Shown here piece by piece: positions 12,486-62,149 of a DNA stretch of 64,000 nt (positions within the stretch are counted from its first letter, which is position 1; each line of letters starts with the position of its first letter). The notes beneath the pieces are model-generated. The model saw only the letters and a list, made by a program, of their open reading frames with translations. It ran no database searches and was not told where the DNA came from. This stretch comes from Pirellulales bacterium. GTDB lineage: Bacteria > Planctomycetota > Planctomycetia > Pirellulales > Lacipirellulaceae. Location of the stretch: the NCBI GenBank assembly GCA_022448265.1, contig JAKVCC010000013.1, positions 1 to 64,000 on the forward strand, read 5' to 3'. The position numbers were made by a program, and so were the translations under genes.

Positions 12486-15400
12486 TTAGTCGGGACTCCC
12501 CATCGATATCAATGTTCCGTTGGCGAGCGCGATATAGACACGCTTATTGGCGACGGCCATTCCGTCAAAAACAGGTGGAGCGGGAATCGCAACTTCAGTG
12601 ACGGCAACGCCATCTGCAGTTCTTCTCAGCGACAGGATTCCTCCCTCGGCGGGAGAGTGTGGAGCGCTGGCACTAGCCGACAGTAGATGGTGGCCTGCAA
12701 CCACGAGTGCCCGAACTTGGCGAGGTGCTTTCACTTCGACTGACCACTCCTGTGAGCCGATACCGAACAGCGCAGATTCGCCCTTTCTTTGTAGTACGTT
12801 TTGAATATATGCTCTCTCCGCTTCGCGGTACCCGAAAGTGTCTCCAGCACTCATCGCGAGTAATTGGCCCTCGGCACCCCGGGCAGTCCAGGTATGGATC
12901 TTTTTGCGCAGCGCCAGATCGTCATCAAACCACGAAGCTTCCAGCAGTCCGGCTATCCCGCCCCGGAAGTGTGACGGCGAGTTTGACGGTGTGCATTTCC
13001 CCGTCTTCGCATCGAAACCGAGATTGGAAAGAAAAACCTGATCGCCCTCCGCCACAAGGTAGTCACACACGCCGACCATCTCGGCGCGAGATTTCGCGGA
13101 CCACAACGGGTTACCCGTTTTGATGTCCAACCCCACAACGGTGATCCCTCCATCGGCATCCGGCGACCGTCCTGCCGCGGCGTAGGCGACTTGATCTCGC
13201 ACCAGCACTGCCCCCGCAACCGGCCAAGCGGATTCTACTTGGCCAAAAACTACGATGCGACGGTCTGCCGGCGCCACCAGGTAACGCCACAACAGAGCGC
13301 CATCCTTGGCCCGCAAGCAGTAGACGTAACCATCATGGCTGCCAAACAAGCATCGGCCTTCACTGATCGTGGGTGGCGAATCAATCCGTCCGTCAGCAGT
13401 GAACTCCCAGCGTACCTCTCCGTTGGCATCATCGATCGCCAAAACACGATGATTCTGGACATCGCAGACGAATACCGTATCGCCAGCTATGACAGGAGCA
13501 GAAATCGGCATCCCGGATCGGATTCGCCACGGACCATCCGTTGTCGCATTCAATGGTCGCCCCACGGAAACTTTCCAACGCGTCGCGAGAGTTTCGGGAA
13601 CTATGGTGGGAGAAGCGGCCGACCTCGACGTGTCGTAACGATGCATAGGCCAATCTTGGGACGTGATCTTCCCTGAGGCGGGCGTGGAAACAGGGTCGGC
13701 CAAATAACTGGAAAGGCGATCCTTGTTTTTCAAGATGCTTGCATCAGGAATGGGTCGGGAATGGCTGGCGATAAATCCCCGCACGACTTCGCCGTAACAG
13801 GCACACGCGTGCGGACTAGAGTACAGAAGTCCGTTTGCAGGAATGAAACCGGAACCGCATACGCCGCGCATGAACTTGACTGGAATCTTCGAACCCGATT
13901 CGAAGTCGATGAACGTTGCCAGTCGCGGGACCATGATGAAGCGATTAGACGCGATCATCAACTGGCATCCCAATTTTCCAGGGCTCTTGGATCTCGGCCA
14001 CAGCCCCGATGTAGTTAGGCGACGTTGTTCGCTGCCTGTTTCAGGATCGAATGCGGCCCAGGTGGCTTGTCCGTCAGACTTGTATGGCGTACTCTCCAGT
14101 TGCATCCAGACTAGACCTTGCAGGTAAAAGTGTCCGGCGTAGCGTATGTCTGCATAGTGTTTACCCGTCTTAGCATTGGTTGTCTGGCTCCACAAATGCT
14201 CTCCATCCTTGCCGCGAAACATGTGTAGCAGGGCATGGCCACGCGAAGAAGGGGGAACTTTACCCCGACGGCGGTCCCGAGCGACTGCGAACTCCATGCT
14301 ACGGTCAAGCACTGCCACGTAACCGTCGTTTGCAAAACAGATCCGCACATCCCTTTCTGCCTTCGGCCAGACATTTGCCCCCTCGCGCCACTTTATCTTG
14401 CCGTCGCGCAGGTTGACGCACACCAGTTCGCCAGAGGGACCGTGCTCTGAATCGTTTTTTTGCAGGAACGTGTAAACAAGTTCGCCGTCAACGACGGTTT
14501 CGCCGATGGATCCTCCTGTTAGTTCCCACGCCTTGGTTGACCCTGTTTCACTGAGGATGTGGCAGGCGAGTGTGGATTCACTCTGAACGAGCAGGGATTT
14601 GTCCTGTAAGATCAGTTCCGTCGCAGGTTCTGTGACAGCAATTCGCTCGATCGGTACGCCATCAGCTGCGTTGAGAATCTCGATTCCCTCGAACGATCCC
14701 ACGAACAAACGATCGGACGAGGCGACGATGAGCGGGTTCAGTTCACCGGCCAATTTCTGAATGGGTCCCTTCCACGGTCGCTGCCAGAGAACAAGTCCGT
14801 TGTAGGCATCCCGTGCGACCAGATAGTGGGGCATATTCTCATTGCGTGCCGTCTCGATTTTGCCAATATTGTCAAGGACGTTCTGTGTAATCGTGAAGTG
14901 GCGTCCTCCTGCAGACACGACACTCTGAGTGCTTGTCTTTCGTCCAGCCATTGGAAATTGCGGCCCGTGAATCCATTGGATCCCTGTGGGCACTCCGAGT
15001 GTCTGATCATCGGTAACCAATCCACCATCGGCGCCGTGCCACGGGTGCGTCCACTGATCGGTGCCACTCGGTTCTGGCTTGTGAATAACCCCCTTCTTGT
15101 CGGAACCACGAATAACCATACCACCGGGCCGCAATACGCGCATCAGTTCAGATTCGGGCACCTTGCTCGAACTCTCTACAACGATGACATTTGCTAGATT
15201 GTCTACGTACGGCAATGTTTTGCCCGACCACAACGATGCATGGCACGTGGCGCCATGTTCGCGCAATGTGGCACTTATCTTTCGGGCTGCGGATAAGCTG
15301 TCGAGATCTTTCGACAGAATGTTAACGACGTAATTGCTGGCCCCGTACCGCTTGGTGATTGCCGAGTCGACATCTCCGATCACAACACACAGGCCCCCAA

Positions 15401-15506
15401 AAAAACGAGACGTCGTTTGCGCTTGTTCTTGGGACATGGTCGGCCCAGCAGACAGAAGGCTTACCACTAGTACGATGACCGTGATTCGCAGTTTTACCAT
15501 TTGCAT
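12486..15506 (-). CDS. Exported PQQ-type beta-propeller protein with methyltransferase-like N-terminal part
   Basis: About 1006 residues from ATG at 15506 (MQMVKLRITVIVLVVSLLSA, signal peptide); a start at 15548 would add a polar 14-residue lead. Residues about 30-130 resemble the C-terminal half of a SAM-methyltransferase fold (LPYVDNLANVIVVESSSKV; ELMRVLRPGGMV). There is no clear SAM-binding GxGxG, so catalysis is doubtful. The remaining 850 residues are PQQ/WD-like blades (GEVRWEFTADGRIDSPPTIS; DGYVYCLRAKDGALLWRYLV). This architecture recurs in planctomycetes as 'PQQ-binding-like beta-propeller' proteins of unknown role. Transcription converges on the scrap-filled 12.1-12.5 kb gap. Confidence 0.85.
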   Translation of the reverse strand: MQMVKLRITVIVLVVSLLSAGPTMSQEQAQTTSRFFGGLCVVIGDVDSAITKRYGASNYVVNILSKDLDSLSAARKISATLREHGATCHASLWSGKTLPYVDNLANVIVVESSSKVPESELMRVLRPGGMVIRGSDKKGVIHKPEPSGTDQWTHPWHGADGGLVTDDQTLGVPTGIQWIHGPQFPMAGRKTSTQSVVSAGGRHFTITQNVLDNIGKIETARNENMPHYLVARDAYNGLVLWQRPWKGPIQKLAGELNPLIVASSDRLFVGSFEGIEILNAADGVPIERIAVTEPATELILQDKSLLVQSESTLACHILSETGSTKAWELTGGSIGETVVDGELVYTFLQKNDSEHGPSGELVCVNLRDGKIKWREGANVWPKAERDVRICFANDGYVAVLDRSMEFAVARDRRRGKVPPSSRGHALLHMFRGKDGEHLWSQTTNAKTGKHYADIRYAGHFYLQGLVWMQLESTPYKSDGQATWAAFDPETGSEQRRLTTSGLWPRSKSPGKLGCQLMIASNRFIMVPRLATFIDFESGSKIPVKFMRGVCGSGFIPANGLLYSSPHACACYGEVVRGFIASHSRPIPDASILKNKDRLSSYLADPVSTPASGKITSQDWPMHRYDTSRSAASPTIVPETLATRWKVSVGRPLNATTDGPWRIRSGMPISAPVIAGDTVFVCDVQNHRVLAIDDANGEVRWEFTADGRIDSPPTISEGRCLFGSHDGYVYCLRAKDGALLWRYLVAPADRRIVVFGQVESAWPVAGAVLVRDQVAYAAAGRSPDADGGITVVGLDIKTGNPLWSAKSRAEMVGVCDYLVAEGDQVFLSNLGFDAKTGKCTPSNSPSHFRGGIAGLLEASWFDDDLALRKKIHTWTARGAEGQLLAMSAGDTFGYREAERAYIQNVLQRKGESALFGIGSQEWSVEVKAPRQVRALVVAGHHLLSASASAPHSPAEGGILSLRRTADGVAVTEVAIPAPPVFDGMAVANKRVYIALANGTLISMGSPD

Positions 15507-15548
15507 AAATCCCTTTGACCGAGCACGTTGCTGATCGCTATTATTCAC

Positions 15549-21681: not shown

Positions 21682-22926
21682 ATGTGGAATTCATTGCTTT
21701 GGACGAAAGTCACCGCTGGCCTGTACGTGGCTTGCTTGGCGACGTTTTTGGCTGATTCGGTCTGCGCTTGCAATGTGCCCGTCTTCCGCTACGCGCTCCA
21801 GCGCTGGCAGCCCGATCCGCTCGAGGCACTTGTGCTGCACCGCGGGCCGCTGGACGAGCAGCACATTGGCCTGGTCCAGACTCTGGAGGACGTGATCGGC
21901 GATGACGATGCGCCGGCCAACCTGGCCGTGCGGACGGTGGATCTGGAACAGCTTTCGGACGACGACGCGCAAGAGTTGCTCGAGGAAGCCGGCGCGCCCG
22001 AGGAGTTACCCAGGCTGCTGGTCCGTTATCCTCCCTTCACGAGGACCGACCGTCCCGCGTTTTGCGGTCCGCTGAACGACTCTGCAGTCCACGCTCTGGT
22101 TGACTCGCCCGCGCGCCGCGAACTCGTGCGCCGGATCGGCGATGGCCATTCCGCCGTTTGGGTGCTGGTGGCCAGCGGCGACCGGGACCAAGACGAGGCG
22201 GCCGCACAGCTCTTGCAGGAACGCCTGCGGCACCTGGAATCGACCGTCGACCTTTCCGCACGCGATTGGTACGCACCTGATTCGTCGCTGCCACCGCAGC
22301 CAGACACGACTGCAACTGCGCAGCCGCGCAACGAGCTTAGATTGCAGTTTTCCGTGATAACGGTTTCCCGCGACGACCCCGCGGAGCGCGCCTTTGTATC
22401 CATGCTGATCAACAGCGAGCCGGACCTGTATGAGTTCGATGAACCAATCGCCATCCCGGTTTACGGTCGGGGCCGAGCCCACTTCGCGCTGGTCGGCCAG
22501 GGCATCGGCGAAGAGAACATCGATGATACGTGTGACTTCCTCGCCGGTGCGTGCTCGTGCGTAATCAAAGCACAAAACCCGGGCGCAGACATGCTGATCC
22601 GTGTAAACTGGGACCTGCTGGTCAGCAGCCAGGATGTCGAGGAAAAAATCCTGCCCGAACTGACTGGTCTGGGAGCCTTCACGTCGGATCCAGAAGTAGA
22701 GCACGACAATACCGATACACGAAGCGTGGCGGTAGCCGCCGCAGAGTCGTTTCCGACGACAAGCGCCGGCGGCTCACACACACTGGCCGTGGTCACTCCG
22801 GCGCCCGTGCCGCCAACAGTCGAACCGTCGTCGACAATGCTTGTTTTTCCCGTGGTGGGCGTCGTGCTGCTGGTGTTGGTCGTGGTGGTGCTTGGCACCT
22901 TGTGGATCAGAAGCCGGGGCAGTTAA
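21682..22926 (+). CDS. Cys-rich exported, C-terminally anchored protein of an ABC operon (unknown function)
   Basis: A 414-residue protein that I cannot place in a characterised family. It has a signal peptide ending in ADSVCACNVPVFRYAL, so a C-x-C motif is at or near the mature N-terminus. Residues 30-200 have an alpha/beta pattern with WQPDPLEALVLHRGPLDEQH and AVWVLVASGDRDQDEAAAQLL, which may be thioredoxin-like tandem halves. A second part has ACSCVIK. The C-terminus has a Pro/Thr-rich linker, then a membrane helix (MLVFPVVGVVLLVLVVVVLG) and a short basic tail, so most of it faces the periplasm. It is the first gene of a tight operon with FtsX-type and molybdate-type transporter genes. The Cys motifs hint at metal or thiol chemistry; this is an inference. 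Confidence 0.75.
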   Translation: MWNSLLWTKVTAGLYVACLATFLADSVCACNVPVFRYALQRWQPDPLEALVLHRGPLDEQHIGLVQTLEDVIGDDDAPANLAVRTVDLEQLSDDDAQELLEEAGAPEELPRLLVRYPPFTRTDRPAFCGPLNDSAVHALVDSPARRELVRRIGDGHSAVWVLVASGDRDQDEAAAQLLQERLRHLESTVDLSARDWYAPDSSLPPQPDTTATAQPRNELRLQFSVITVSRDDPAERAFVSMLINSEPDLYEFDEPIAIPVYGRGRAHFALVGQGIGEENIDDTCDFLAGACSCVIKAQNPGADMLIRVNWDLLVSSQDVEEKILPELTGLGAFTSDPEVEHDNTDTRSVAVAAAESFPTTSAGGSHTLAVVTPAPVPPTVEPSSTMLVFPVVGVVLLVLVVVVLGTLWIRSRGS

Positions 22927-22974
22927 GCTAGCTGCACCAGCTTCCTCGTTGTTCTCTGCATTGAAGTCAGTCTC

Positions 22975-24207
22975 ATGAAGTTATCCCATCTGGTAATCCA
23001 GGAAATCTCACATCGCCGGCTGAACTTCCTGATGGCGTCGCTGACGATTGCGGTCGCAGTGGCATGCGCCGTGGGTGTAGTGACCCTGCTGAGGGGTTAC
23101 GAAATCCACACGGCGGCTCAGGTTGCTGCCCTGGACGACGAGATTCGCAAGATTACCAAAAAGATGGGCTTCAACGTATTGATTCTCCCGCGAGAACTGA
23201 ACCTGGCCGAATTCTTTGCGGACGATTTCGCGGACCAGACCATGCCCGAAACTCATGTCGACCTGCTGGCCCAGAGCCGCGATGTGATGACCATTCAGCA
23301 TCTGCGACCGGCACTGGTCCGCAAGATCGCGTGGCCCGAGCAGAACCGGGATATCATCATGATGGGCGTGCGGGGGATTGTGCCTTTTGCGCATCGCAAA
23401 GCGAAAAAACCGCTGGCCGACCCGGTACCGCCTGGGAAGATTGACGTCGGTCATTTGCTGGCCCGTGAATTGGATCTGGCCCCAAGTAGCTCCCTGACGT
23501 TGCTCGGTGAATCCTATGAAGTAAACAAGGTGTATCCGCCACGGGGCAACCAGGATGACATCACCGTCTGGATTGATCTGGCCCAGGCCCAGCAGATCTT
23601 GGGGCTGGAGGGACAGATTAACATGATTCAGGCGCTGGAGTGCAATTGCGCGTCGATCGACAGATTGGCCGAAATCGAAAGCGAGGTCTCCGCTGTGCTG
23701 GGCGACCAGGTTCAGGTGATTGAGTTGGCGACGACCGCCATTGCGCGAGCCCAGGCCCGTACACGGGTCAGCGAGGCGGGCGCCGCAACACGCAATCGAG
23801 TGATGCGACTGGCCGCGATGCTGATTCCCATGGTTATCGCCGGAGCGGTGGTGATCGTTGGACTGTTATCCCTGGCGAATGTTCGGCAGCGACGACCCGA
23901 GATCGGCATCCTCCGCGCGGTGGGCCTGCGATCCAGCCAGATCCTCCGCGTTTTCCTCGCCAAGGCCGCACTTGTTGGTGTGACAGGCGCCGTGTTAGGG
24001 TACGTGATTGGTTTTGGCGTGGCCGTTGCTATCCAGTCGCAATGGAGCGGTGATCCGACACAGCAACTGGGGCTGGCAGTCCTGTTCATCCCCGTTTTGT
24101 TACTGACCGTGCTCCTGCTGACACCGCTGTTGTCCGTGATGGCCGGATGGTTGCCCGCACTCTCGGCGGCCGCCCAGGATCCGGCTACCATCCTGCACGA
24201 GGAATAG
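22975..24207 (+). CDS. FtsX/MacB-type ABC transporter permease
   Basis: A 410-residue membrane protein. TM1 is at about residues 17-38 (FLMASLTIAVAVACAVGVVT), followed by a periplasmic domain of about 240 residues, and then three more helices (LAAMLIPMVIAGAVVIVGLL; ALVGVTGAVLGYVIGFGVAV; LAVLFIPVLLLTVLLLTPLL). The layout and the motif RQRRPEIGILRAVGLRSSQI are diagnostic of the FtsX domain in LolC/MacB permeases, which work by mechanotransmission rather than import. The periplasmic domain includes LECNCASIDRLAEI with a C-x-C motif, as in the neighbour upstream. Partner ATPase is the next gene. The gene end lies in a triple 22-bp tandem repeat. Confidence 0.9.
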   Translation: MKLSHLVIQEISHRRLNFLMASLTIAVAVACAVGVVTLLRGYEIHTAAQVAALDDEIRKITKKMGFNVLILPRELNLAEFFADDFADQTMPETHVDLLAQSRDVMTIQHLRPALVRKIAWPEQNRDIIMMGVRGIVPFAHRKAKKPLADPVPPGKIDVGHLLARELDLAPSSSLTLLGESYEVNKVYPPRGNQDDITVWIDLAQAQQILGLEGQINMIQALECNCASIDRLAEIESEVSAVLGDQVQVIELATTAIARAQARTRVSEAGAATRNRVMRLAAMLIPMVIAGAVVIVGLLSLANVRQRRPEIGILRAVGLRSSQILRVFLAKAALVGVTGAVLGYVIGFGVAVAIQSQWSGDPTQQLGLAVLFIPVLLLTVLLLTPLLSVMAGWLPALSAAAQDPATILHEE

Positions 24208-24254
24208 TGGCATCTTGCACGAGGAATAGTGGCATCTTGCACGAGGAATAGTAG
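24189..24254. repeat. 22-bp unit repeated three times across a stop codon and ribosome binding site
   Basis: Three successive units at 24189-24210, 24211-24232 and 24233-24254. Each includes TGCACGAGGAATAGT. The first carries the last codons and TAG stop (24205-24207) of the FtsX-type permease; the last provides the GAGGAA ribosome binding site of the ATPase gene at 24257. The expansion lengthens the intergenic spacer and multiplies Shine-Dalgarno-like sequences without changing either protein. Confidence 0.9.
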
Positions 24255-24256
24255 CG

Positions 24257-24958
24257 ATGGCGCTCAAGCTCGAAAACGTCAGCAAAACTTACACGCGCAA
24301 TGGCCTGGATGTGCTGGCGTTACAAGAAGGCAGCTGCAGCATTGAACCGGGTCAGTTCATCGCTGTGTGCGGGCCTAGCGGTTGCGGTAAATCGACGTTG
24401 CTCCAGGTCAGCGGCGGTCTGATGCGACCCGATGCGGGAACCGTCACGCTAGACGACCAAGACATCTACGCCTTGTCGGCGGACGAGCGGGCCGGCTTCC
24501 GAGGTGCCAGCCTGGGCTTTGTGTTCCAACAGTTTCACCTGGTCCCGTACCTGAACGTGCTGGAGAATGTGCTGGTTGCCTCACTAGCGCTGCCCGCCAA
24601 GTCCCCCGCCAGCCAGCGAGACGCCCGTGACCGCGGGTTGGCTTTGATCGACCGATTCGGACTCCGCGACCGGGCATTCCATCGTGCTGCCCAGCTCTCC
24701 ACGGGCGAGCGTCAGCGCGTGGCGCTGGCCCGGGCCTTGCTGAACGAACCCCGCTTCATCCTGGCTGACGAGCCAACAGGCAATCTGGACGAGGCCAATG
24801 GCGAAGAAGTACTCCGCCATCTGGCCGAGTGTGCCGAGCAGGGGACGGGAGTGCTGTTGGTCACGCACGATGCCCGCGCGGCGGAAGTTGCCAGCCGGGT
24901 CGTGGAGATGGAAGCGGGCTCGATCCGCGATGAGGCAATGCCATGGGGTGTGGCATGA
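24257..24958 (+). CDS. LolD/MacB-type ABC transporter ATP-binding protein
   Basis: A 233-residue ATPase with Walker A GPSGCGKST (residues 39-47), Q-loop region FVFQQFHLVPYLNVLENVLV, signature LSTGERQRVALARALLNEPR (Thr in place of the second Gly of LSGGE), Walker B FILADEPTGNLDE and the switch His in LLVTHDARAAE. The ADEPTGNLD string and the length place it in the LolD/MacB/FtsE group. It is the partner of the FtsX-type permease immediately upstream. It overlaps the next gene by an ATGA junction at 24955, so translation is likely coupled. Confidence 0.93.
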   Translation: MALKLENVSKTYTRNGLDVLALQEGSCSIEPGQFIAVCGPSGCGKSTLLQVSGGLMRPDAGTVTLDDQDIYALSADERAGFRGASLGFVFQQFHLVPYLNVLENVLVASLALPAKSPASQRDARDRGLALIDRFGLRDRAFHRAAQLSTGERQRVALARALLNEPRFILADEPTGNLDEANGEEVLRHLAECAEQGTGVLLVTHDARAAEVASRVVEMEAGSIRDEAMPWGVA

Positions 24959-26544
24959 ATTCAGCCAAAGCGGCGGCACTCGGATCGATTGTCGTCTCCC
25001 TGGTGATCGCGGGGTTGCTCTGGGCACCATGGAACCGCCCGGCTGTCGCCGCAGGCGAGCCATTGACCCTGTACTGTGCCGCCGGCATCCTGCGGCCGGT
25101 GGAACAGATTGCCGCCGAGTACCAACGGGAATACGGCGTGCGCATCCAGATCGAACCGGATGGATCAGGCAAGCTGTTGACGAAGATCAAGGGCGCACCG
25201 CACCGGGGTGAATTGTATCTGGCGGCGGATCCGTCGTACATCATTCAGGCCCAAAAACTGGGGCTGGTGGCGGAGTCCATACCCGTCGCCCGGATTCGGC
25301 CGGTGATCGTGGTCCATTCGAAGACACAACAGCAACTCACAACCGACGGAAACCCGATCCAATCGCTGGACGATCTGCTGCGCACGGACATTTCGATTGT
25401 GCTGGCCAATCCCGAGCTGGCGTCGGTCGGTAAGTTGACCGAACAATTGCTGACTGCCAGCGGACATTGGGCGACGCTGGAAGAGCGCATGCAGCAGCAC
25501 ACCGGTGCGCAGGTTTCCACGTTGGGCACGGTGACGGAGGTAGCCCAGGCCGTGAAGCTGAAGCCCGGCTATGTCGGCATCGTGTGGGACGCGGTCGCCA
25601 CGCGCTACGAGGGCTTGGACGTAGTCCACACAGAGGAACTCGACCAGGCGATCCAGCACATCACGATTGGGGTGCTGACGGGCGCACGGGATGAGCGAGC
25701 AACGGCAGCCCTGCTGTTCGCCCGCTACCTGACTGCCCGTGACAAGGGCCTGACCCACTTCGCGCAATTCGAATTCGAACCGGTTCCGGACGCCGACGTG
25801 TGGGCCGAGCGGCCCGCGCCGATCCTGATGAGTGGCGCCATGCTCAAGCCGGGAATTGACGAGATTATCAAGGCATTCGCCCGGCGGGAAGGGGTTGACG
25901 TCAATACCAACTATAACGGTTGCGGAATTCTCGTGTCGCAGATGCAGAGCATTCGCACCAACGGTTCGACGGATCAGTTTCCGGACGCATACTTCTCGTG
26001 CAACGCCACCTTCATGACCATGGTCCAGAAGTGGTTTGACGCGGCTGAGACCATCTCCAGGAATGACATCGTGATGATTGTCAGCAAAGGCAATCCGCTC
26101 GGGATCCGCTCGCAGGAGGATTTAACCCGCACCGACCTGAAGATCGGCCTGGCGCACCCCGAGAACTCGGCGCTTGGCACCTTGACGGACGAACTGCTGA
26201 CGCAAGTCGGCCTGCACTCGCGAGTCTATACGGATGACTGGCGCGAGCGAATCGTGCATACGGACGCGGGGCACGACCTGGTCAACAAGGTGCGCGTCGG
26301 GGCGCTCGATCTGGCCGTCGTGTATCGCAGCAACGCCCAGGCGACGCCGTCGAACCTGGAAAAACACATGGAGATCGTGGAGATCAATGTGGCCGGCGCG
26401 CTGGCGGAGCAGCCGTTTGCCGTTGCCGCGGATTCTGACCACAAGTACCTGATGAAACGGCTACTCCAGGCGATCGTGGCCGAACCATCGCAGGATCGTT
26501 TCCGGTCGTTGGGCTTCCAATGGGTGTACACGGCGAACCGGTGA
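24955..26544 (+). CDS. Double-domain molybdate/tungstate-type solute-binding protein
   Basis: A 529-residue protein from the ATG at 24955, which overlaps the upstream stop (ATGA). It has a signal anchor (AALGSIVVSLVIAGLLWAPW). Two PBP type II (ModA-like) units are in tandem: unit 1 at about 35-280 (LTLYCAAGILRPVEQIAAEY; DGSGKLL; GELYLAADPSYI), and unit 2 at about 285-525 (LMSGAMLKPGIDEIIKAFAR; YNGCGILVSQM; DAYFSCNATFM). Unit 1 keeps a Ser at the oxyanion site; unit 2 has Cys at the corresponding place, and another Cys in the next strand. ModA proteins normally have one unit of about 230 residues, so this is a duplicated or fused form. It serves the permease and ATPase downstream. The ligand may differ from molybdate. 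Confidence 0.88.
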   Translation: MNSAKAAALGSIVVSLVIAGLLWAPWNRPAVAAGEPLTLYCAAGILRPVEQIAAEYQREYGVRIQIEPDGSGKLLTKIKGAPHRGELYLAADPSYIIQAQKLGLVAESIPVARIRPVIVVHSKTQQQLTTDGNPIQSLDDLLRTDISIVLANPELASVGKLTEQLLTASGHWATLEERMQQHTGAQVSTLGTVTEVAQAVKLKPGYVGIVWDAVATRYEGLDVVHTEELDQAIQHITIGVLTGARDERATAALLFARYLTARDKGLTHFAQFEFEPVPDADVWAERPAPILMSGAMLKPGIDEIIKAFARREGVDVNTNYNGCGILVSQMQSIRTNGSTDQFPDAYFSCNATFMTMVQKWFDAAETISRNDIVMIVSKGNPLGIRSQEDLTRTDLKIGLAHPENSALGTLTDELLTQVGLHSRVYTDDWRERIVHTDAGHDLVNKVRVGALDLAVVYRSNAQATPSNLEKHMEIVEINVAGALAEQPFAVAADSDHKYLMKRLLQAIVAEPSQDRFRSLGFQWVYTANR

Positions 26545-27377
26545 GCAATCGATCCTCTTCAGCAACAGCGACCCACCCCACCCGCGTCCCGTCGGACGTG
26601 CCGTTTTTTACTGCGCTGCTGCTGTTGAGCGCCAGCTACGCGCTGTTGCTGCTGGGCATGCTGGTGGCGATGGGCTCCTTCACGTCGCCGGTGCATCTGT
26701 GGGCGGCCGTCCAGAGCGAGGAAATCATTTATGCCACACGGTTGAGCCTGCTGTCCTGTTCGATGGCGGCGATCTGGGCGGTGTGGGTGGCGGTGCCGAT
26801 CGGGTACCTGATGTCGCGGTATAAATTCGCCGGCAAGAATTTTGTGGATGCGTTGTTCGATATTCCGATCGTCCTGCCCCCGCTGGTGATCGGCCTGGCA
26901 TTGCTCATCCTGTTTCAGACTCAGGTCGGCCAGTTTTTCGAGAACCTGGTACCCGGAGGGATCACGTTCGCCGTGCCCGCCGTGATTCTGGCACAGTTCA
27001 TGGTGGCAACTGCGTTCGCGATTCGGACGATGCGCGTGACGTTCGACGGCATCAATCCGCGCACCGAACAGGTAGCCCTGACGTTGGGTTGCAATCGCAG
27101 CCAGGCGTTCTGGCAGGTCGTCCTGCCGGAAACCAGGAACGGTGTCGTGACCGCCGGCACTTTGGCTTGGGCGCGGGCCCTGGGTGAGTTCGGCCCGATC
27201 CTTGTCTTCGCGGGGGCAACGCGGATGCGCACCGAAGTGCTGCCGACCAGCGTCTTCCTCGAACTGAGTGTCGGCAACATTGAAGCGGCCGTCGCCGTAT
27301 CGCTGATCATGGTCTGCCTAGCCATGATCGTACTGGTGATCGCGAGAGTTTTTGGGATGCATGATCTATTCTTGTAG
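26541..27377 (+). CDS. Molybdate-type ABC transporter permease (ModB-like)
   Basis: A 278-residue permease from GTG at 26541, which overlaps the previous stop as GTGA; an ATG at 26520 in the same frame would overlap by 25 bases. About six hydrophobic segments are visible (FFTALLLLSASYALLLLGML; LSLLSCSMAAIWAVWVAVPI; ALFDIPIVLPPLVIGLALLI). The cytoplasmic EAA-type loop is EQVALTLGCNRSQAFWQVVL-P, and ARALGEFGPILVFAGATRMR is the conserved stretch of ModB/CysW permeases (usually GEFGAT...N). It works with the binding protein upstream and the ATPase downstream. Confidence 0.9.
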   Translation: MSNRSSSATATHPTRVPSDVPFFTALLLLSASYALLLLGMLVAMGSFTSPVHLWAAVQSEEIIYATRLSLLSCSMAAIWAVWVAVPIGYLMSRYKFAGKNFVDALFDIPIVLPPLVIGLALLILFQTQVGQFFENLVPGGITFAVPAVILAQFMVATAFAIRTMRVTFDGINPRTEQVALTLGCNRSQAFWQVVLPETRNGVVTAGTLAWARALGEFGPILVFAGATRMRTEVLPTSVFLELSVGNIEAAVAVSLIMVCLAMIVLVIARVFGMHDLFL

Positions 27378-27386
27378 GAGCCGGAT

Positions 27387-28034
27387 GTGATTCAGGTCGA
27401 CCAACTGGAGGTTATCCAGGGCGATTTTTCGTTGCGGGAAGTCAGCCTGCACATCCCCACAGGGCAATACGGCGTGCTCATGGGCCGCACCGGTTGTGGC
27501 AAAACGACGGTGCTCGAAGCGATCTGCGGCCTCAGAAAAATCGAGTCCGGGCGGATCGTTCTGGCCGATCGCGATGTAACCGATCTGAAGCCAGCAGCAC
27601 GCAATGTCGGTTATATTCCCCAGGACGGCGTCCTTTTCTCCACGATGACAGTGCGACAGCATCTGGCGTTCGCACCCAAGGTCCGCAAGCTGGATCACCA
27701 CGTGACGGGCGAGTGGATCGATGAGCTGGCGGACCTGCTGGACATCCGGCACCTGTTGAACCGGAAACCGGCGAAGCTCAGCGGAGGCGAGCGACAGAGG
27801 GTCGCGTTGGGACGCGCTTTGTCGTTCCACCCGCCCGTGTTGCTGATGGACGAACCGCTCAGCGCCCTGGATGACGAGACGCGCAGCCAGATGTATGATG
27901 TGATTCAACGAGTGCGCCGGCACACGGGCGTCACCGCCCTGCACGTTACCCACAATGTGAGTGAGGCAGCCGGGTTGGCCGACGTACTGTTTGCCTTTGA
28001 GGACGGCGTCATTCAAGAGCGGCCATTGGCGTAA
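27387..28034 (+). CDS. ModC-like ABC importer ATP-binding protein lacking the regulatory domain
   Basis: A 215-residue ATPase. It starts at GTG 27387 after an AGGAG at 27376-27380; no in-frame ATG exists upstream. Walker A is GRTGCGKTT, signature LSGGERQRVALGRALSFHPP, Walker B VLLMDEPLSALDD, switch His ALHVTHNVSEA. The string DEPLSALDD and the neighbours make it the energiser of the ModB-like permease. It ends after the ATPase core and has no C-terminal TOBE/mop domain, which in typical ModC binds the oxyanion and mediates inhibition. It is the last gene of the operon that starts at 21682. Confidence 0.92.
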   Translation: MIQVDQLEVIQGDFSLREVSLHIPTGQYGVLMGRTGCGKTTVLEAICGLRKIESGRIVLADRDVTDLKPAARNVGYIPQDGVLFSTMTVRQHLAFAPKVRKLDHHVTGEWIDELADLLDIRHLLNRKPAKLSGGERQRVALGRALSFHPPVLLMDEPLSALDDETRSQMYDVIQRVRRHTGVTALHVTHNVSEAAGLADVLFAFEDGVIQERPLA

Positions 28035-43091: not shown

Positions 43092-43382
43092 TTATCCTCC
43101 TGAGATTGGCATCATGAGAAACAAATCATGATCACGCTCCAACGAAAATGAATCAGGATTCGTAATCTGTGATCCGTCTACCACAACGACAATGCTCTTC
43201 CTGAGCGTATCGTCCGAATCAAACAGCAGCTCTTTCATTTCCGCCGAACATGCCACGGCTCGATCGCGCAGCAGCAGGGTCAAAGGCGAGCCTTGCATCG
43301 CCGTCGCCGATTCCTGCTCGACACCAGCGGCGCGAGCCAGTTGAGCCGTGTAGGTTATCGTCACATTGACTGTCTTAGGCAT
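43092..43382 (-). CDS. MoaD/ThiS-like ubiquitin-fold sulfur carrier
   Basis: A 96-residue protein from ATG at 43382 (MPKTVNVTITYTAQLARAAG); a longer frame to 43448 has no added similarity. It has the beta-grasp pattern VNVTITYTAQL...IVVVVDGSQI...LERDHDLFLMMPISGG and ends in Gly-Gly, required for C-terminal adenylation. Its stop codon lies 4 bases from the ATT start of the ThiF-like gene, and its last codons contain that gene's Shine-Dalgarno sequence. The two form a carrier-activator pair, used in molybdopterin/tungstopterin, thiamine or cysteine-type pathways. Which one cannot be read here. Confidence 0.88.
   Translation of the reverse strand: MPKTVNVTITYTAQLARAAGVEQESATAMQGSPLTLLLRDRAVACSAEMKELLFDSDDTLRKSIVVVVDGSQITNPDSFSLERDHDLFLMMPISGG
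43096..43101 (-). promoter_or_regulatory. Shine-Dalgarno that decides the ATT start of the ThiF-like gene
   Basis: AGGAGG on the minus strand inside the final codons (Ser-Gly-Gly) of the MoaD-like gene. It lies 8 bases before the ATT at 43087-43085, the ideal spacing, whereas no canonical start codon in the correct frame is within reach. Confidence 0.75.
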
Positions 43383-43643
43383 ACGTCCCGTCCCGAATCG
43401 CAACGGATCACAGTTTCTGATCATAACCCAGTTGTCCAGAATCCACATGCCCTAAATATGATCCTGCTCGTGCTCCGGGCCCTGCTCTTGTATGACTGAC
43501 TACCAGTCAGCCTAATGACACGTTTATGACACGGTATTCAGATATCGCCACATAAAAGCATGGACGAAATGGAAAGGAGAGAAATTGGCCCGATTATCGC
43601 AATTCGTTTCCAATTAAAAGATTACTGTAAAAACAGCGGAAAA

Positions 43644-43692: not shown

Positions 43693-44059
43693 AAACTCCT
43701 TGCAGTTGCACTGTAATAACTTAACCGATGCCGCCAACCCCTTTAATGCAACCTGACCTTACTCCGCTTTTAGTACGGGCCTAAGTAAGAGAATCATGGC
43801 TAAAGATTCCGCTGTTCCTTTGGAGCGAGTCCGTAGCCTCCAGCGAAAGAGAGCAGTGGTCGGCAAATGCCACGACCAAGTGGTTCTTCGCGAGGACAAT
43901 TCATATACCCCTCAGAGCTGACCCACTATCCTACGAGCTGCGTCTTGAGGAAAAACATCACCTACAGTAGCATGACGCTTCGCAGCATGGGTGCCTCCCG
44001 CTTCCTTTGCCTTCAGCTGGCGACTTCACAGTTTTCCTTCCGGATGGAGTAAACGCGCG
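43693..44059. other. Intergenic stretch upstream of the beta-propeller gene
   Basis: No gene recognised. It should hold the promoter of the gene at 44060. A short frame in the region near 43867 has no similarity to known families. TGGAG at 44045-44049 is a suitable ribosome binding site for the ATG at 44060. Confidence 0.4.
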
Positions 44060-45304
44060 ATGCCCAAGATTATTCTGGTCGGGCTACTAGGGCTTCTTTT
44101 TAATTCACTGCCGGCAATGGCCACCGATGGTCCTTGGCCGCAGTGGCGCGGCCCCCAACGCGACGACGTATCGGAAGAAACAGGACTGCTCCAAGCATGG
44201 CCCGAGGATGGACCTCCACACCGCTGGCTGTTTAAGGAATGTGGCCTGGGCTATGCGGGACCGGCCATTGTAGGAGATAGACTTTACATCTTAGGAGCGC
44301 GAGCAGGTCAAGAAGAGCTAATCTGCTTGGATGTAAATGAGGGGCGAGAAGTTTGGTCCAAACCGCTCGGCCTCGTTTACGAGAACGGCTGGGGCGATGG
44401 CCCCCGCTCGACGCCAACAGTCGAAGGAAAATTCATTTACGTGCTAGCCGCCCGAGGCAATCTAGCTTGCTTGCAGATCGACGACGGCACCATTGTTTGG
44501 CAACGGACCATGCAGGATTTGGGCGGCCAAACTCCCAATTGGGGTTATAGCGAATCGCCGCTGATTCACGAGGAAAAAATACTCTGTACTCCCGGAGGCG
44601 AACAAGGAGCTGTGGCAGCGCTTGACAAGGCCACTGGAGATCTCCTCTGGCAAACTTCTTCGGTTGACGAAACAGCCCACTACTCGTCGATCGTCGTAAC
44701 GGAACAAGCGGGGCGCGAGATTGGCGTCCAGCTACTCGTCAGCCAACTTATAGGATTCAGTCTGAACGATGGCAAGGTCTTGTGGAGCGTTCCCTGGGGC
44801 GGAAGCACGGCAGTGGTCCCGACACCGATCGTCTGGAAAAACGATGTCTATGTTACCTCCGGCTACGGCGCAGGCTGCATGCTGGTCCGCTTGCATAACG
44901 ATGATACGATCGAACAGATTTACGACAACAATCTGATGACTAACCATCATGGTGGTGTCATTCGCCTTGGCAATTACCTCTACGGCTATTCTGATGGCAA
45001 AGGCTGGGTCTGCCAGAACTTTGCCACCGGGACAAAAAAGTGGAGCGAACGCACGGCGCTGGGAAAAGGAGCCATTGCGTATGCCGATAGTCGATTTTAC
45101 TGCATCAGCGAGGATGAAGGCCACGTGGTCTTGATCGATGCCTCTGAAGAAGGCTGGCACGAGCAGGGCCGTTTTACCCTCGATCCGCAAACCGAATTGA
45201 GGAAACCGCGCGGCAAGATATGGGTGCATCCGGTCATTGCAAACGGACGACTCTACCTTCGCGATCAGGAATTGTTATTTTGCTTTGATATCAGAGACTA
45301 CTGA
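44060..45304 (+). CDS. Exported PQQ-type beta-propeller protein
   Basis: A 414-residue protein from ATG at 44060 (MPKIILVGLLGLLFNSLPAM, signal peptide); the in-frame ATG at 43991 adds 23 residues before the signal. It begins with WPQWRGPQRDDVSEETGLL, the hallmark entry of planctomycete PQQ-like propellers. Repeated blades include AGPAIVGDRLYILGA, GGEQGAVAALDKATGDLLWQ and QELLFCFDIRDY. These proteins are thought to be binding scaffolds or inactive relatives of quinoprotein dehydrogenases; no catalytic residues for PQQ are evident. The DUF6807 gene starts 15 bases downstream, so they probably form one operon. Confidence 0.88.
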   Translation: MPKIILVGLLGLLFNSLPAMATDGPWPQWRGPQRDDVSEETGLLQAWPEDGPPHRWLFKECGLGYAGPAIVGDRLYILGARAGQEELICLDVNEGREVWSKPLGLVYENGWGDGPRSTPTVEGKFIYVLAARGNLACLQIDDGTIVWQRTMQDLGGQTPNWGYSESPLIHEEKILCTPGGEQGAVAALDKATGDLLWQTSSVDETAHYSSIVVTEQAGREIGVQLLVSQLIGFSLNDGKVLWSVPWGGSTAVVPTPIVWKNDVYVTSGYGAGCMLVRLHNDDTIEQIYDNNLMTNHHGGVIRLGNYLYGYSDGKGWVCQNFATGTKKWSERTALGKGAIAYADSRFYCISEDEGHVVLIDASEEGWHEQGRFTLDPQTELRKPRGKIWVHPVIANGRLYLRDQELLFCFDIRDY

Positions 45305-45319
45305 TCGCTAGAAACGCCA

Positions 45320-46330
45320 ATGCGCCCTACACCGAGATTTCGAGTTTTTTTTGCCCGTTGGAGTGCGCGGGTCTGCCGGAGCTTCTTAGCCGCGGCCTTA
45401 ATCTATTTAGCCCACCTGAATTGCGGCACCGCTCTTGAGGGCGCTGAGGTCACCGCGAAGCATAGCGAACATGGTGCTGTGGTGCGCATCGACGGCAAAC
45501 TATTTGCCGAATATCGCACGCGATCCGGGCATCAACCGGCCATATGGCCAATTATTGGCCCCACCGGGAAGCCGACAACCCGTTCGTTCCCCATTGGGCC
45601 ACGAGAGCCAACTGAAAGGTCCGACCATCCGCATCACCACTCACTCTGGTTCGCTCATCAAGATGTGAACGGGCACGACTTCTGGCATGGAGACGGGGGG
45701 CGCAACGTCATCAAACATTTGGAATTCTCCAAGATTGAAAACCTCGGCCAGGAGGCCGTCGTGGTGACCCGCAATCGCTGGCTGGCAGGCGAAGAAAATC
45801 CGATCTGCGACGAGCGGCGAACGTTTCGTTTTGGTGCAAATGATGCAGCTCGGTGGATCGATTTCACTTCGGAGATTGTGGCCGCTCACGGCGCAGTGAC
45901 TTTCGGCGACATGAAAGACGGTGCATTTTCAGTGCGCGTGGCGGGTACTATGAAAGTCGACGCTGGCTTGGGAGGAAGCATCTTCAGTAGCGCTGGGCTC
46001 ACCGATCAGGATGCTTGGGGACTTCCCGCCGAGTGGGTCGATTACCACGGACCGGTCGAAGGGGAAACGGTCGGAATCGCCATCTTTAGCCATCCCTCCA
46101 ACTTTCAGCATCCGTGCCGGTGGCACGTTCGCAGCTACGGACTCTTTAGTGCTAACCCGTTTGGCGAACGCCCATTTCCGCAGATCAAATTCAAACAAAC
46201 GCCCAAGACAATTGCCAAGGGCGATACCATGACACTCCGTTACCGGGTGTTCATTCATCGCGGCAATACGAACACGGGCAAAGTGCGAGAAGCCTACGCG
46301 AGCTATGCGGGAGATGCCAGCAAGGGCTAA
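45320..46330 (+). CDS. DUF6807 / methane oxygenase PmoA-like exported protein
   Basis: A 336-residue protein with a signal peptide after a basic lead (FARWSARVCRSFLAAALIYL). It carries the family's motif string RSDHPHHHSLWFAHQDVNGH and DFWHG, followed by a galactose-mutarotase-like beta-supersandwich (RRTFRFGANDAARWIDFTSE; HPCRWHVRSYGLFSANPFGE). The name PmoA-like comes from annotation tradition and does not mean methane oxidation. The His-rich motif suggests metal or carbohydrate binding. It follows the beta-propeller gene by 15 bases and converges on the DUF1552 gene at 46336. Confidence 0.88.
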   Translation: MRPTPRFRVFFARWSARVCRSFLAAALIYLAHLNCGTALEGAEVTAKHSEHGAVVRIDGKLFAEYRTRSGHQPAIWPIIGPTGKPTTRSFPIGPREPTERSDHPHHHSLWFAHQDVNGHDFWHGDGGRNVIKHLEFSKIENLGQEAVVVTRNRWLAGEENPICDERRTFRFGANDAARWIDFTSEIVAAHGAVTFGDMKDGAFSVRVAGTMKVDAGLGGSIFSSAGLTDQDAWGLPAEWVDYHGPVEGETVGIAIFSHPSNFQHPCRWHVRSYGLFSANPFGERPFPQIKFKQTPKTIAKGDTMTLRYRVFIHRGNTNTGKVREAYASYAGDASKG

Positions 46331-46335
46331 TGGCC

Positions 46336-47697
46336 TCAAGCCAAGATAGATGACAGCGTTCCTGTGCTGTCCGCATAGTGCTTGCGCTCCATGCCAAGAG
46401 CATGCAACTGAGCGAGCCAAAGATTGGCCAAAGGTGTTCCCTGCTCGCACTGTATATGTCGCCCTTGTTTCAGTTTTCCGCCGCCACCACCTGCGACCAC
46501 CAGCGGCAAGTCGTTGTATTGATGCGTGGACCCATCCCCAAGCCCTGCACCAAGGGTAAAGATGATGTTGTCGAGCAGGGTGGTCCCGCCGGCCTCCTCG
46601 ATCGAATCCATCTTCTCGAGCAATCGGGTAAAAGCGCTCACATGAAAATGATCCAGCTTCAACAGGTCGTCAATAAACTCGGATTGGTTGTGCGACATTG
46701 CGTGATGACTGCGTGGCTGATCCAAAATGCCTTCATATTGATTGGTCGTTTGCCATCGTTCGGGAGCCACCATCAGCGTGCCCACGTTGGTTAAACCCGC
46801 TTGCAGTGCGGTGACCAGCAGATCCCCCATGACGTGAATGTATTCGTTGCGTGGAAGATGGTCGCCAGGCCGTTCTGTTCGGTATTCTGCAACCTCGGCT
46901 TTCATCGCATCGATCTTATCCATGCGCTGTTCAATCGAACGAATGGATTCATAGTACTCACCAAACTTGTGGCGGTCTGCCACACCGAGTTGCTTCTCAA
47001 GATCGCGCGCGTTGTCAAGGACAAGGTCGGTGATGTTGCGATAACGGGTGTGGGAGCGAGTGCTGAACAAACGGTCGTAAACCTGACGTGGATCACGTAA
47101 CGACGGCGCGACATGCCCAGGGCCGTACCACGACATGTTATCGAAATAAATGGACTCAACATTATCCTTCGCATCATTGCAACTCAACTCAAGTGTTGGA
47201 AACGGGGTCGTGCTTCCGATCTGGTCGCCAACTACGTGGTCCAACGTTCGATCGATGGGATAGGCCGAACGAAGCTCCGTATAGGGGGCACAACTGGAAA
47301 GGAAACAAGAAGCCGCCTGGGCATGGGAATCTGTGCCCTGTTGAAAAGTTCGGTCCAGGCCCGTGACCAAAGTGATCCGCTCCTTCATTTTTTGTAAGGG
47401 ATCAAGCGTTGGCGTAAAGGTAAGAGGGTGACTCCCAACCGGAGCGGCTTCTCCTACAAAGCGCCAGACGTCGTTTTGACTTGTGGCTTTAGGTAGCGCC
47501 CGCTGGGATTCTCCCGGGAAAAAACCTTGCCGGACTAGACCATTGGGGAGATAGAAAAAAGCCATACGAACGGCCGGCACTTCGGCCTGGGCAGCGACGG
47601 CTAGGCTCTCGAGACACGGCAGGCTCAATAGGGATCCGCCAAGACCACCTAAAAATCTGCGGCGCGATACTTGCTGCGCTTGCGCATCATTCTTCAT
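46336..47697 (-). CDS. DUF1552 protein, Tat-exported
   Basis: A 453-residue protein. The start at 47697 (MKNDAQAQQVSRRRFLGGLG) puts the Tat motif at residues 11-17 and overlaps the end of the DUF1592 gene by 11 bases; a longer in-frame start at 47712 adds 5 residues. DUF1552 features are RMAFFYLPNGLVRQGFFPG, DSHAQAASCFLSSCAP, DHVVGDQIG and NIIFTLGAGLGDGSTHQYND followed by LPLVVAGGGGGKLKQGRHIQ. It is an alkaline-phosphatase-superfamily-like exported partner of DUF1592 cytochromes. The two gene orders here and at 60801 are alike. Confidence 0.93.
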   Translation of the reverse strand: MKNDAQAQQVSRRRFLGGLGGSLLSLPCLESLAVAAQAEVPAVRMAFFYLPNGLVRQGFFPGESQRALPKATSQNDVWRFVGEAAPVGSHPLTFTPTLDPLQKMKERITLVTGLDRTFQQGTDSHAQAASCFLSSCAPYTELRSAYPIDRTLDHVVGDQIGSTTPFPTLELSCNDAKDNVESIYFDNMSWYGPGHVAPSLRDPRQVYDRLFSTRSHTRYRNITDLVLDNARDLEKQLGVADRHKFGEYYESIRSIEQRMDKIDAMKAEVAEYRTERPGDHLPRNEYIHVMGDLLVTALQAGLTNVGTLMVAPERWQTTNQYEGILDQPRSHHAMSHNQSEFIDDLLKLDHFHVSAFTRLLEKMDSIEEAGGTTLLDNIIFTLGAGLGDGSTHQYNDLPLVVAGGGGGKLKQGRHIQCEQGTPLANLWLAQLHALGMERKHYADSTGTLSSILA

Positions 47698-60800: not shown

Positions 60801-62144
60801 CTAGATGCCAGCGAGGCGTCCGGTGCTGTCTCCTAGACGGTCGGCTTCGACACCTAGTCGGTCAAGGAGCGAGAGATAGAGATTGGTCATCGGTACGTCT
60901 TCGCCAACCTTGACGTGGCGCCCGGGCGTGAGTGAGCCGCGTCCGCCACCGGCCAGTAGGATCGGCAAATCATTGTGGGCGTGAGAATGGCCGTCGCTGA
61001 TGGCGCAGCCGTACACGATCATAGAATTGTCGAGTACACTGGACCCTCCGGGCTCCTTGGCGGCGTCCAGCCGCTGCAGAAAATAGGCGAGCTGCTCAAC
61101 GTAGAAGTGGTCGATCTTGGCAATTTTCTCCAAATTTTCTACCTGGCCTTTGTGATGCGACAGATCGTGATGGCCTTCGTCGATACCCAATTCTGGAAAG
61201 CTACGATTACTCCCCTCGTGTGCCAGCGGAAATGTCGCTAGGCGGGTCGAATCGGTCTGAAATGCCAGAACCAACAAATCAAACATCACTCGAAGATGCG
61301 TCTGGTGATCCTCGGGAATCCTGTCCGGACACGACATGGTTGTCTGCGCCAGCGTGAACTGCTCCGACCGGTCAATCTGCTGCTCAACACTCCGCACGCT
61401 CGTAAGGTACTCATCCAGTTTGTGCCGATCGTTACTGCCCAAACGACGCGAAATTGTGCGGCTATCCTCTGCAATAAAGTCTAAAACACTGAGCCTCTGC
61501 TGCTGCCGGACGCGCAGATTGCGTTGCCGCTGGTCCGGCGCACCGATGCCAAACAAGTTTTCGAAAACGGCGCGGGGATTGGGCTCAGGCGCCAGGGGCA
61601 TGGTGGGCGAGGCCCAGGATAAATTGAGTTGGTACGCGCAGCTATAGCCAGAGTCACAATTGCCCGTAGAACGTCCCGCCTCGGAGCCGAGTTGGAGCGA
61701 CGGAATGCGTGTCAAATGCCCAATGCGCTGGGCGGCCAGTTGATCGACGGAAATACCATTGCGAAAGTTGGCGCCCGCTGTTTTAAGCGGCCGTGCACCA
61801 GTGAGAAATACGGCATTGGCTCTGGCGTGGTCCCCGGCACCGTCCTGCATGGCATATGCGTTACGGTGAGCAAACCCACTAAAGACTTGGAACATGTGTC
61901 GCATCGAATCGAGTGGCGCAAATGTGTCGTTCAACTCATAGGTTAGGCCAACTCCTTTCGGTCGCCACCGCTCCATGTTCACTCCGTCCGGAACCGCCAA
62001 GAAAGCAGCACGCAACGGGGCTTGGCGGGCGGCCACCTCCACCCCTTGGACGCTTGGCACCAACGATTCCATCAGCGGAAGTGCTAGACAGGCTCCCGCA
62101 CCACGAAGAAATCGGCGACGTTCGAATTGCTGTGAAAAAGCCAT
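60801..62144 (-). CDS. DUF1552 protein, Tat-exported
   Basis: A 447-residue protein with Tat signal QFERRRFLRGAGACLALPLM. Family marks are LRAAFLAVPDGVNMERWRPK, DHARANAVFLTGARPL, SVDQLAAQRIGHLTRIPSLQ, HHDLSHHKGQ and NSMIVYGCAISDGHSHAHND followed by LPILLAGGGRG. It starts 5 bases after the stop of the DUF1592 gene (62150), as in the related pair at 46336-49774. It is a paralogue of that DUF1552 protein, but clearly diverged. Confidence 0.93.
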   Translation of the reverse strand: MAFSQQFERRRFLRGAGACLALPLMESLVPSVQGVEVAARQAPLRAAFLAVPDGVNMERWRPKGVGLTYELNDTFAPLDSMRHMFQVFSGFAHRNAYAMQDGAGDHARANAVFLTGARPLKTAGANFRNGISVDQLAAQRIGHLTRIPSLQLGSEAGRSTGNCDSGYSCAYQLNLSWASPTMPLAPEPNPRAVFENLFGIGAPDQRQRNLRVRQQQRLSVLDFIAEDSRTISRRLGSNDRHKLDEYLTSVRSVEQQIDRSEQFTLAQTTMSCPDRIPEDHQTHLRVMFDLLVLAFQTDSTRLATFPLAHEGSNRSFPELGIDEGHHDLSHHKGQVENLEKIAKIDHFYVEQLAYFLQRLDAAKEPGGSSVLDNSMIVYGCAISDGHSHAHNDLPILLAGGGRGSLTPGRHVKVGEDVPMTNLYLSLLDRLGVEADRLGDSTGRLAGI

Positions 62145-62149
62145 GCTGC

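Follow-up and report, generated by a model that had tools for sequence, protein, structure and literature searches.

The window, a 64,000-nucleotide stretch of DNA from a Pirellulales bacterium (contig JAKVCC010000013.1, positions 1 to 64,000), carries at positions 21682-28034 an operon of six genes that encode an anchored cysteine protein (the leader), an FtsX/LolD pair related to the type VII ATP-binding cassette (ABC) superfamily, and a molybdate-type importer composed of a tandem ModA binding protein (ModA2), a ModB-type permease and a ModC/WtpC-type ATPase. Comparison with relatives places the operon in a wider system and ties that system to large exported PQQ-type propellers that share four cysteines (Cys4 propellers). 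Tentatively, and at somewhat less than an even chance, we read the operon as the central part of a conserved set of envelope proteins whose task would be to mature these propellers. A Cys4 propeller gene and genes for a MoaD-like and a ThiF-like protein are dispersed around the operon, all within 15 kb of it. The relevant features of the window are as follows.

21682-22926, plus strand: leader, an anchored cysteine protein of 414 residues, without a Pfam or NCBIfam family above cut-off
22975-24207, plus strand: FtsX-type (type VII ABC) permease; PF02687, 65 bits (cut-off 25.5)
24189-24252, plus strand: tandem repeat of 22 bp (2.9 copies) covering the stop codon of ftsX and the spacer to lolD
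24257-24958, plus strand: LolD-type ATPase, ABC_tran; best NCBIfam model LolD, 199.4 bits (cut-off 307.75)
24943-26544, plus strand: tandem ModA binding protein; TIGR01256, 82.5 bits (cut-off 62.5)
26520-27377, plus strand: ModB-type permease, the sole TIGR02141 match of the window genome at E<=1e-20
27387-28034, plus strand: ModC/WtpC-type ATPase of 215 residues, from the Pfam and NCBIfam scans
12489-15548, minus strand: PQQ-type propeller of 1020 residues with the four-cysteine motif, candidate client; PF13360, 96.3 bits
42326-43036 (frame open to 43111), minus strand: ThiF/MoeB-like E1 adenylyltransferase with two CxxC; PF00899, 174.3 bits (cut-off 28.1)
43095-43448, minus strand: MoaD-like sulfur-carrier or ubiquitin-like protein with a C-terminal PISGG; weak SAMP1 match, 26 bits (cut-off 60)

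Exported propellers with four conserved cysteines

The association between the operon and the Cys4 propellers was assessed in two hand-picked sets of genomes: (i) 40 system genomes, out of 64 that contain the leader or the tandem ModA, and (ii) 40 control genomes, 90% complete or more, without the leader, a full-length tandem ModA or FtsX. Some of the controls contain a single-domain ModA, and 21 of them belong to the order or class of the window genome (G000; G and L numbers are our labels for genomes and loci). Profiles were built for two subfamilies, A4 and A7, and the searches scored up to 39-40 candidates per genome. The motif reads C-x37(-39)-C-x19-C-x-C, and its spacings of 37-39 and 19 residues are kept in all 30 rows of A4; in A7, which includes the window protein, all 6 rows share four cysteines in this order.

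Profile A4 matched in 37 of the 40 system genomes and profile A7 in 25, including three that A4 had missed (G000, G168 and G198), and neither profile matched in any control, although the controls offered 4 to 110 first-look propeller candidates each over both searches. Taken together, one or the other is found in 40/40 system genomes versus 0/40 controls (Fisher 2e-23, relatedness ignored). Each system genome contains at least one match with all four cysteines, as checked in alignment rows for nine genomes and in extracted pieces for 31. At least 8 of the 30 A4 rows and 3 of the 6 A7 rows come from genomes later tested, a circularity that spares only the absence from the controls and those matches found elsewhere; in G000 the window propeller is the only A7 match, and it is itself a row of that profile.

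Among 115 non-redundant leader loci, some of them on short contigs, a Cys4 propeller occurs in 59, in 40 of these within 600 nucleotides of the leader. In genus g43 (L052, L057, L058, L059 and L061) no propeller was called beside the operon, yet the genomes contain 4-8 matches each, and the presence of the propellers differs likewise between two genomes of one genus, G163 (system) and G145 (control). Matches reach up to 13 per genome, many of them far from the operon. Even where they are unlinked, operon and Cys4 propellers occur in the same genomes, which is the strongest single result of the analysis.

Like the BamB-like proteins and quinoprotein dehydrogenases, the Cys4 proteins contain PF13360 repeats; unlike them, they extend to approximately 1000-1500 residues with four conserved cysteines, and they fall far below the model for PQQ-dependent alcohol dehydrogenases (TIGR03075; 19.2 for the window protein and 38.9 for that of L050, with a cut-off of 480.05). 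One of three scanned propellers (L075:4620-8543) has at its N-terminus a domain resembling methyltransferases (PF13649, 28.5 bits, cut-off 27), together with a laminin-G-like domain.

Conservation and components of the operon

The distribution of the operon proteins was surveyed in 392 genomes of the phylum, with a threshold of E<=1e-30 for FtsX and with full-length tandem ModA called by eye from the model span. Because these large searches scored only the top 3-5 candidates in each genome, both presence and copy numbers are minimum estimates; some profile matches may be fragments of one gene, and genomes that are related do not count independently (one genus accounts for nine system genomes). 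The counts were 53 genomes for the leader, 54 for FtsX and 48 for full-length tandem ModA, with overlaps of 43 (leader and FtsX), 39 (FtsX and ModA) and 37 (leader and ModA) and corresponding Fisher p values of 3e-37, 1e-32 and 2e-29. All 41 strong FtsX genomes possess the leader. The 53 leader genomes comprise 37 with a tandem ModA, two with a truncated one and nine with, by our own count, two single-domain ModA genes close together (L047 and L072 are examples of such pairs).

Gene neighborhoods were initially called by a simple longest-open-reading-frame method, which missed the leader in some loci, and the calls were repeated with profiles for the 115 loci. FtsX is present in 62, in 60 of them on the same strand and within 600 nucleotides of the leader; ModA of the window profile is present in 41, the ThiF-like gene in 25 and the MoaD-like gene in 23. 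The unit is modular, since the leader with FtsX/LolD only, the leader with ModA2-ModB-ModC only, and the leader with both all occur, and in 20 loci (e.g., L050, L088, L106 and L107) the leader is accompanied by a Cys4 propeller with no ABC module in the stretch examined; several loci of the latter type are labelled Verrucomicrobia. Loci L206, L211 and L213 each present one same-strand run of 8-10 system genes, in which leader, FtsX, LolD, propeller, ModA2, ModB, ModC, MoaD-like and ThiF-like genes appear in varying order and content (the L211 run gave no MoaD match, and the L213 run ends inside the leader at the end of the stretch). A pattern-based locus search with the tandem ModA alone retrieved zero relatives, probably because the patterns fell on poorly conserved stretches.

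Ten genomes combine a tandem ModA and a weaker FtsX match with no leader match, and 20 loci from these and other genomes were extracted for inspection. In nine of the ten, a divergent leader-like protein is encoded directly upstream of FtsX, with a CEC motif, a mature start similar to CRYTVRD (CEYCVRE in L211) and, mostly, a visible C-terminal anchor; the tenth (G134, L204) contains a protein with CFC that scores 110 bits to the leader profile. The profile of the divergent leaders aligned with that of the leader over 181 columns (hhalign 97.7%, E 2e-12), CEC falling on CSC. Sequence comparison supports the view that the leader and the two ABC modules form one conserved unit. The earlier sequence-only reading had joined the leader to both transporter types, and the genome-wide overlaps and locus counts bear this out, since leader and modules co-occur and adjoin rather than remaining always separate.

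Within the window, the six co-directional genes recognized by that reading were recovered by an open-reading-frame check at the same coordinates and all on the plus strand, and the Pfam and NCBIfam families agree with its assignment of the two ABC types, LolD/FtsX and Mod-type. The gaps measure 48 nucleotides between the leader and ftsX, 49 between ftsX and lolD (filled by the 22-bp repeat) and 9 between modB and modC, and the genes overlap by 16 nucleotides at lolD/tandem modA and by 25 at tandem modA/modB. Within the repeat, the surroundings of the ftsX stop codon and a site resembling GAGG recur. The number of terminator-like sites does not exceed background (6 found, 6.1 expected), and an Rfam scan of the 64-kb window gave zero riboswitch or other RNA matches.

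The leader is composed of a signal peptide, a cysteine at the mature N-terminus (C30), a C291-x-C293 motif and a C-terminal membrane anchor. C30 is kept in 46 of 46 alignment rows and C291 and C293 in 45 each, the window protein included. The CACN at the mature start, formerly taken for a CxC motif, did not hold up: C28 is not conserved and occupies position -2 of the signal-peptide cut site, which by a simple rule is AxA-like in 38 of 41 rows, so that the mature leader starts with a cysteine and its true CxC is C291-x-C293. An AlphaFold2 model (predicted local distance difference test score, pLDDT, 82.9) retrieved two-domain disulfide oxidoreductases and fragments of protein disulfide isomerases in Foldseek (best E 5.4e-4), with low TM-scores (0.17 of the whole model). 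Residues 142-289, compared with thioredoxins on their own, gave a VIA Z of 8.9 and a root-mean-square deviation of 2.4 over 99 residues; this part is predicted to adopt a thioredoxin-like fold, and the leader as a whole may consist of two such domains in tandem, with C291-x-C293 placed behind the last helix of the second. No CxxC occurs among its conserved cysteine columns (46 rows), and a sequence search of the PDB gave zero matches. Records whose labels name Verrucomicrobia, Kiritimatiellae, Sumerlaeota and other groups likewise contain the leader. Four leader contigs, metagenome-assembled (L102, L106, L125 and L153), bear the titles 'Akkermansia muciniphila', 'Klebsiella pneumoniae' and 'Prosthecobacter debontii', of which at least the Klebsiella label appears doubtful.

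In FtsX, both cysteines of the pair noted earlier in the LECNC motif (C223 and C225) are kept in 31 of 31 rows, the window included, and the pair would sit in the extracytoplasmic domain. The protein exceeds the cut-off of the FtsX permease domain (PF02687) and thereby resembles the type VII ABC systems (LolCDE, MacB, FtsEX and YbbAP), a class reported to drive cell-envelope processes (PMC12646458). Like them, the window pair has an FtsX-fold permease and a LolD-like ATPase; unlike them, it has a single permease gene with an extracytoplasmic CxC, no fused ATPase and a cysteine-bearing leader as partner. Its scores fall short of LolC/E (60.9 of 362.45) and LolD (199.4 of 307.75), of MacB (44.6 and 174.8 of 966 bits, ATPase and permease being separate genes), and of FtsE (173.5 of 264.85) and FtsX (21.4 of 255). 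In L149:3833-6445, two tandem FtsX-type permease genes follow the leader and precede one LolD.

In the binding protein, a predicted N-terminal membrane helix is followed by two complete ModA domains; what the sequence-only reading called the 'second lobe' is in fact the entire second domain, and the conservation of its cysteines was confirmed (C327 and C353, 21 of 22 rows each, compared with 19 of 22 for C45 in domain 1; window included). The model (pLDDT 91.4) matched best the ModA-like structure 7tav and molybdate/tungstate-binding proteins. An alignment of the two halves with solved ModA proteins places C45 at the first Ala of 'AAAS', C353 at the Ala of 'SAD' and C327 within the serine loop; these loops presumably face the ligand. 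Like ModABC and WtpABC, the importer has the ModA fold (here twice, the best TIGR01256 stretch lying in domain 1), a ModB-type permease and a ModC/WtpC-type ATPase. It differs in its membrane-anchored tandem binder with cysteines at cleft-loop positions, instead of a single soluble domain, and in a short ModC that is missing the C-terminal part of the 347-353-residue WtpC and ModC models. The permease and ATPase remain below the equivalog cut-offs of ModB (157.7 of 182.6), ModC (168.8 of 285.05), WtpB (138 of 340) and WtpC (211.8 of 440).

In 11 of 13 system genomes tested, the sole ModB-like permease (E<=1e-20; TupABC was not searched for) adjoins the tandem ModA, which makes molybdate or tungstate the likely substrate as judged from gene content. 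Five genomes without the system gave ModB over the cut-off in two, an adjacent pair below it in two and none in one. All 13 have moaA over the cut-off and thus presumably need molybdenum; moaA as such does not discriminate, being present in 391 of the 392 genomes at E<=1e-3 and over the cut-off in 275. A 2018 survey describes all Planctomycetes sequenced in its set as users of molybdenum, and some users as being without a known transporter (PMC6147048). Molybdenum or tungsten is accordingly the best-supported candidate metal on sequence grounds, and the domain-2 cysteines suggest that thiophilic species may also be handled.

Genes for MoaD-like and ThiF-like proteins often follow modC in relatives and are split off in the window, where the E1 scores 352 bits and the MoaD-like protein 67 bits to the corresponding neighbor-cluster profiles. 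The E1 stays below the MoeB model (TIGR02355, 145.3 of 376.55). For MoaD (TIGR01682), the L059 protein scores 22.8 of 66.15 and the window protein gives zero match; the latter has no Pfam match and is not among the PF02597 matches of G000. In that genome, a ThiS-family protein lies beside moaA on another contig, and another, better-scoring ThiF protein is encoded apart from the window pair, for which reason the window pair is probably not the housekeeping one. The possibility that it represents the molybdenum-cofactor pair of G000 was discarded in view of the ThiS-family protein and the missing PF02597 match. A neighboring protein of 140 residues was read by eye as MoaE. A scan for defense systems gave zero matches for the leader, the MoaD-like protein and the propeller, and distant ones for the E1 (E1-E2) and the permease (CARF-LolE).

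Elsewhere in the window, the gene of a small PQQ-type propeller (43991-45301) has a gene for a DUF6807 protein (45320-46327; PF14100, 234 bits) directly on its downstream side, and two minus-strand gene pairs (46339-49774 and 60804-63964) appear by eye to code for planctomycete cytochrome-type proteins and their partners.

Maturation, import and other readings

Exported proteins with a common four-cysteine site occur here with an anchored chaperone-like cysteine protein, an importer of the molybdate family, a sulfur pair and, in many cases, an ATP-driven envelope machine; the simplest view is that the former are clients and the latter the apparatus that matures them. In this scheme, ModA2-ModB-ModC would import molybdate, tungstate or a similar species able to meet thiols, and the MoaD-like carrier, charged by the ThiF-like E1, would provide sulfur. 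Outside the membrane, C30 and C291-x-C293 of the thioredoxin-like leader may carry the cargo, a metal alone or with sulfur. FtsX/LolD could act in the manner of other type VII ABC machines, which push on periplasmic partners rather than pump, and so drive the hand-over to the four cysteines of the propeller. The scheme gives no outward route across the membrane for metal or sulfur. In an extended form, which we consider unlikely, the Cys4 propellers would constitute a new class of extracytoplasmic metalloproteins and the operon the assembly line of a pterin-free center of molybdenum or tungsten type (or of another thiophilic metal) with sulfur. The only hint of copper is a cluster of 1056-1087-residue proteins closely behind leaders L151, L154, L155 and L161; its scanned copy (L154) contains a DUF6797 and a cupredoxin domain, which may point to copper or to electron transfer.

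Several observations count against maturation by the operon. The metal, the sulfur transfer, its direction and the hand-over are elements that we infer, and the Cys4 site could be structural (disulfides or zinc). In the window, 6 kb separate the operon from the propeller gene, which has the opposite orientation, and 14 kb separate it from the sulfur pair; in G067, four of the five propeller matches examined do not show the four-cysteine pattern. No partner was found in the stretches examined for 17 of the 115 leader loci, and 11 tandem-ModA genomes have no leader match, ten of which are explained by the leader-like proteins described above, while the eleventh (G404) shows only a CEC-bearing piece where the stretch ends. 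At E<=1e-30, FtsX is missing from eight genomes in which both the leader and the tandem ModA occur, among them the single-contig G163 and G428. A fixed two-pump relay, as implied by the sequence-only reading, is therefore not general, and FtsX/LolD would be a helper rather than essential. Among 13 divergent FtsX proteins from the 20 extracted loci, the CxC is kept in 11 and missing in L211 and L212, and in the split ModA genes examined (L047 and L072) the domain-2 cysteine pair is not in place. Finally, the only ModB-like match of G163 (C1:6348980-6349399) is far from its tandem ModA (258404-259927), and G428 has two further, adjacent ModB-like matches.

The alternative closest to the sequence-only reading is import, in which the Cys4 propellers and the leader, at the surface or in the periplasm, would capture a thiol-held metal or oxyanion, FtsX/LolD would release it to ModA2, ModB-ModC would import it and the MoaD-like/ThiF-like pair would use it; the supply of molybdenum or tungsten to the cell would then depend on the system. 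In agreement with this, the tandem ModA adjoins the sole ModB-like permease in the 11 genomes mentioned above, cysteines occupy binding-loop positions of ModA domain 2, and a non-tandem ModA occurs in at most 4 of 48 tandem-ModA genomes compared with any ModA in 158 of 344 others (Fisher 2e-7; the latter include about 13 leader genomes with a cut or split ModA). Against it, up to 13 propeller matches per genome, many distant from the operon, resemble clients rather than parts of an importer, and there is no reason for molybdate to need thiol capture. The sequence-only reading, which had proposed coordinated capture, release and import, had also overlooked the MoaD-like/ThiF-like pair and the Cys4 propellers; the co-occurrence upholds its single unit and does not extend to capture, release or import of a cargo, and the contrast of 40/40 with 0/40 points to maturation of exported proteins at least as strongly as to import. 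We regard import as rather unlikely, though the next most probable reading.

Somewhat less probable still is a system restricted to disulfides or sulfur, with the leader as a disulfide isomerase or persulfide carrier for the propeller cysteines, energized by FtsX/LolD, and the Mod proteins as passengers or regulators. The thioredoxin-like fold of residues 142-289, the CxC motifs in leader, FtsX and clients, and the sulfur carrier with its E1 would fit such a role, but the leader lacks a conserved CxxC, and the linkage of the tandem ModA, about as strong as that of FtsX and persisting in the eight genomes without FtsX, would be left unexplained.

The MoaD-like and ThiF-like proteins could also act on the transporter, tagging and regulating it as a ubiquitin-like (SAMP-like) pair for conjugation instead of donating sulfur, but this appears quite improbable. 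SAMP1 is the only NCBIfam match of the window MoaD-like protein, which ends in PISGG, and the E1 matches UbaA at 162.5 bits; however, the SAMP1 score is 26 against a cut-off of 60, that of UbaA is below its cut-off of 450, and MoeB models score equally or higher on the E1 (188.4 and 165.6 bits).

It is scarcely credible that two unrelated transporters, an ordinary LolCDE/MacB and an ordinary ModABC, are merely neighbors: each protein does belong to a known superfamily and some leader loci have one module only, but the genome-wide co-occurrence in the main refutes this, and the common CxC pattern and the missed equivalog cut-offs of FtsX, LolD, ModB and ModC also stand against it. An ordinary LolCDE, MacB or FtsEX beside an ordinary ModABC was likewise discarded on the missed cut-offs and the strong co-occurrence.

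Known parallels and significance

For maturation of exported propellers, the nearest functional parallel is nosDFYL, in which an ABC transporter and a Cu(I) chaperone equip a periplasmic enzyme, nitrous oxide reductase. Nitrous oxide reductase is itself a beta-propeller. The ABC transporter is thought to provide sulfur, and the Cu(I) protein NosL copper, to the enzyme (PMC6530538). The present system differs in its type VII FtsX/LolD pair, thioredoxin-like leader, tandem-ModA importer, sulfur carrier with E1, and candidate clients, which are PQQ-type propellers with four cysteines. The window FtsX, LolD, ModB, ModC and E1 all score below the curated cut-offs of LolCDE, MacB, FtsEX, ModB/ModC, WtpB/WtpC and MoeB. 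The sequence-only reading knew of no described system with this layout, and full-text searches of open-access papers, which do not cover most subscription papers or any bioRxiv preprints, brought up none either. The operon thus appears to belong to an undescribed, conserved envelope system with a clear candidate client family.

The analysis offers a testable role for a family of large exported propellers to which the libraries used give no specific function. Where a genome yielded no second ModB-like permease (TupABC again outside the search), it also supplies a candidate importer of the molybdate family. If the maturation scheme is correct, the system would add one more ABC machine to those that build a protein center outside the cytoplasm, and molybdenum, tungsten or another metal might have a new biological use in it.

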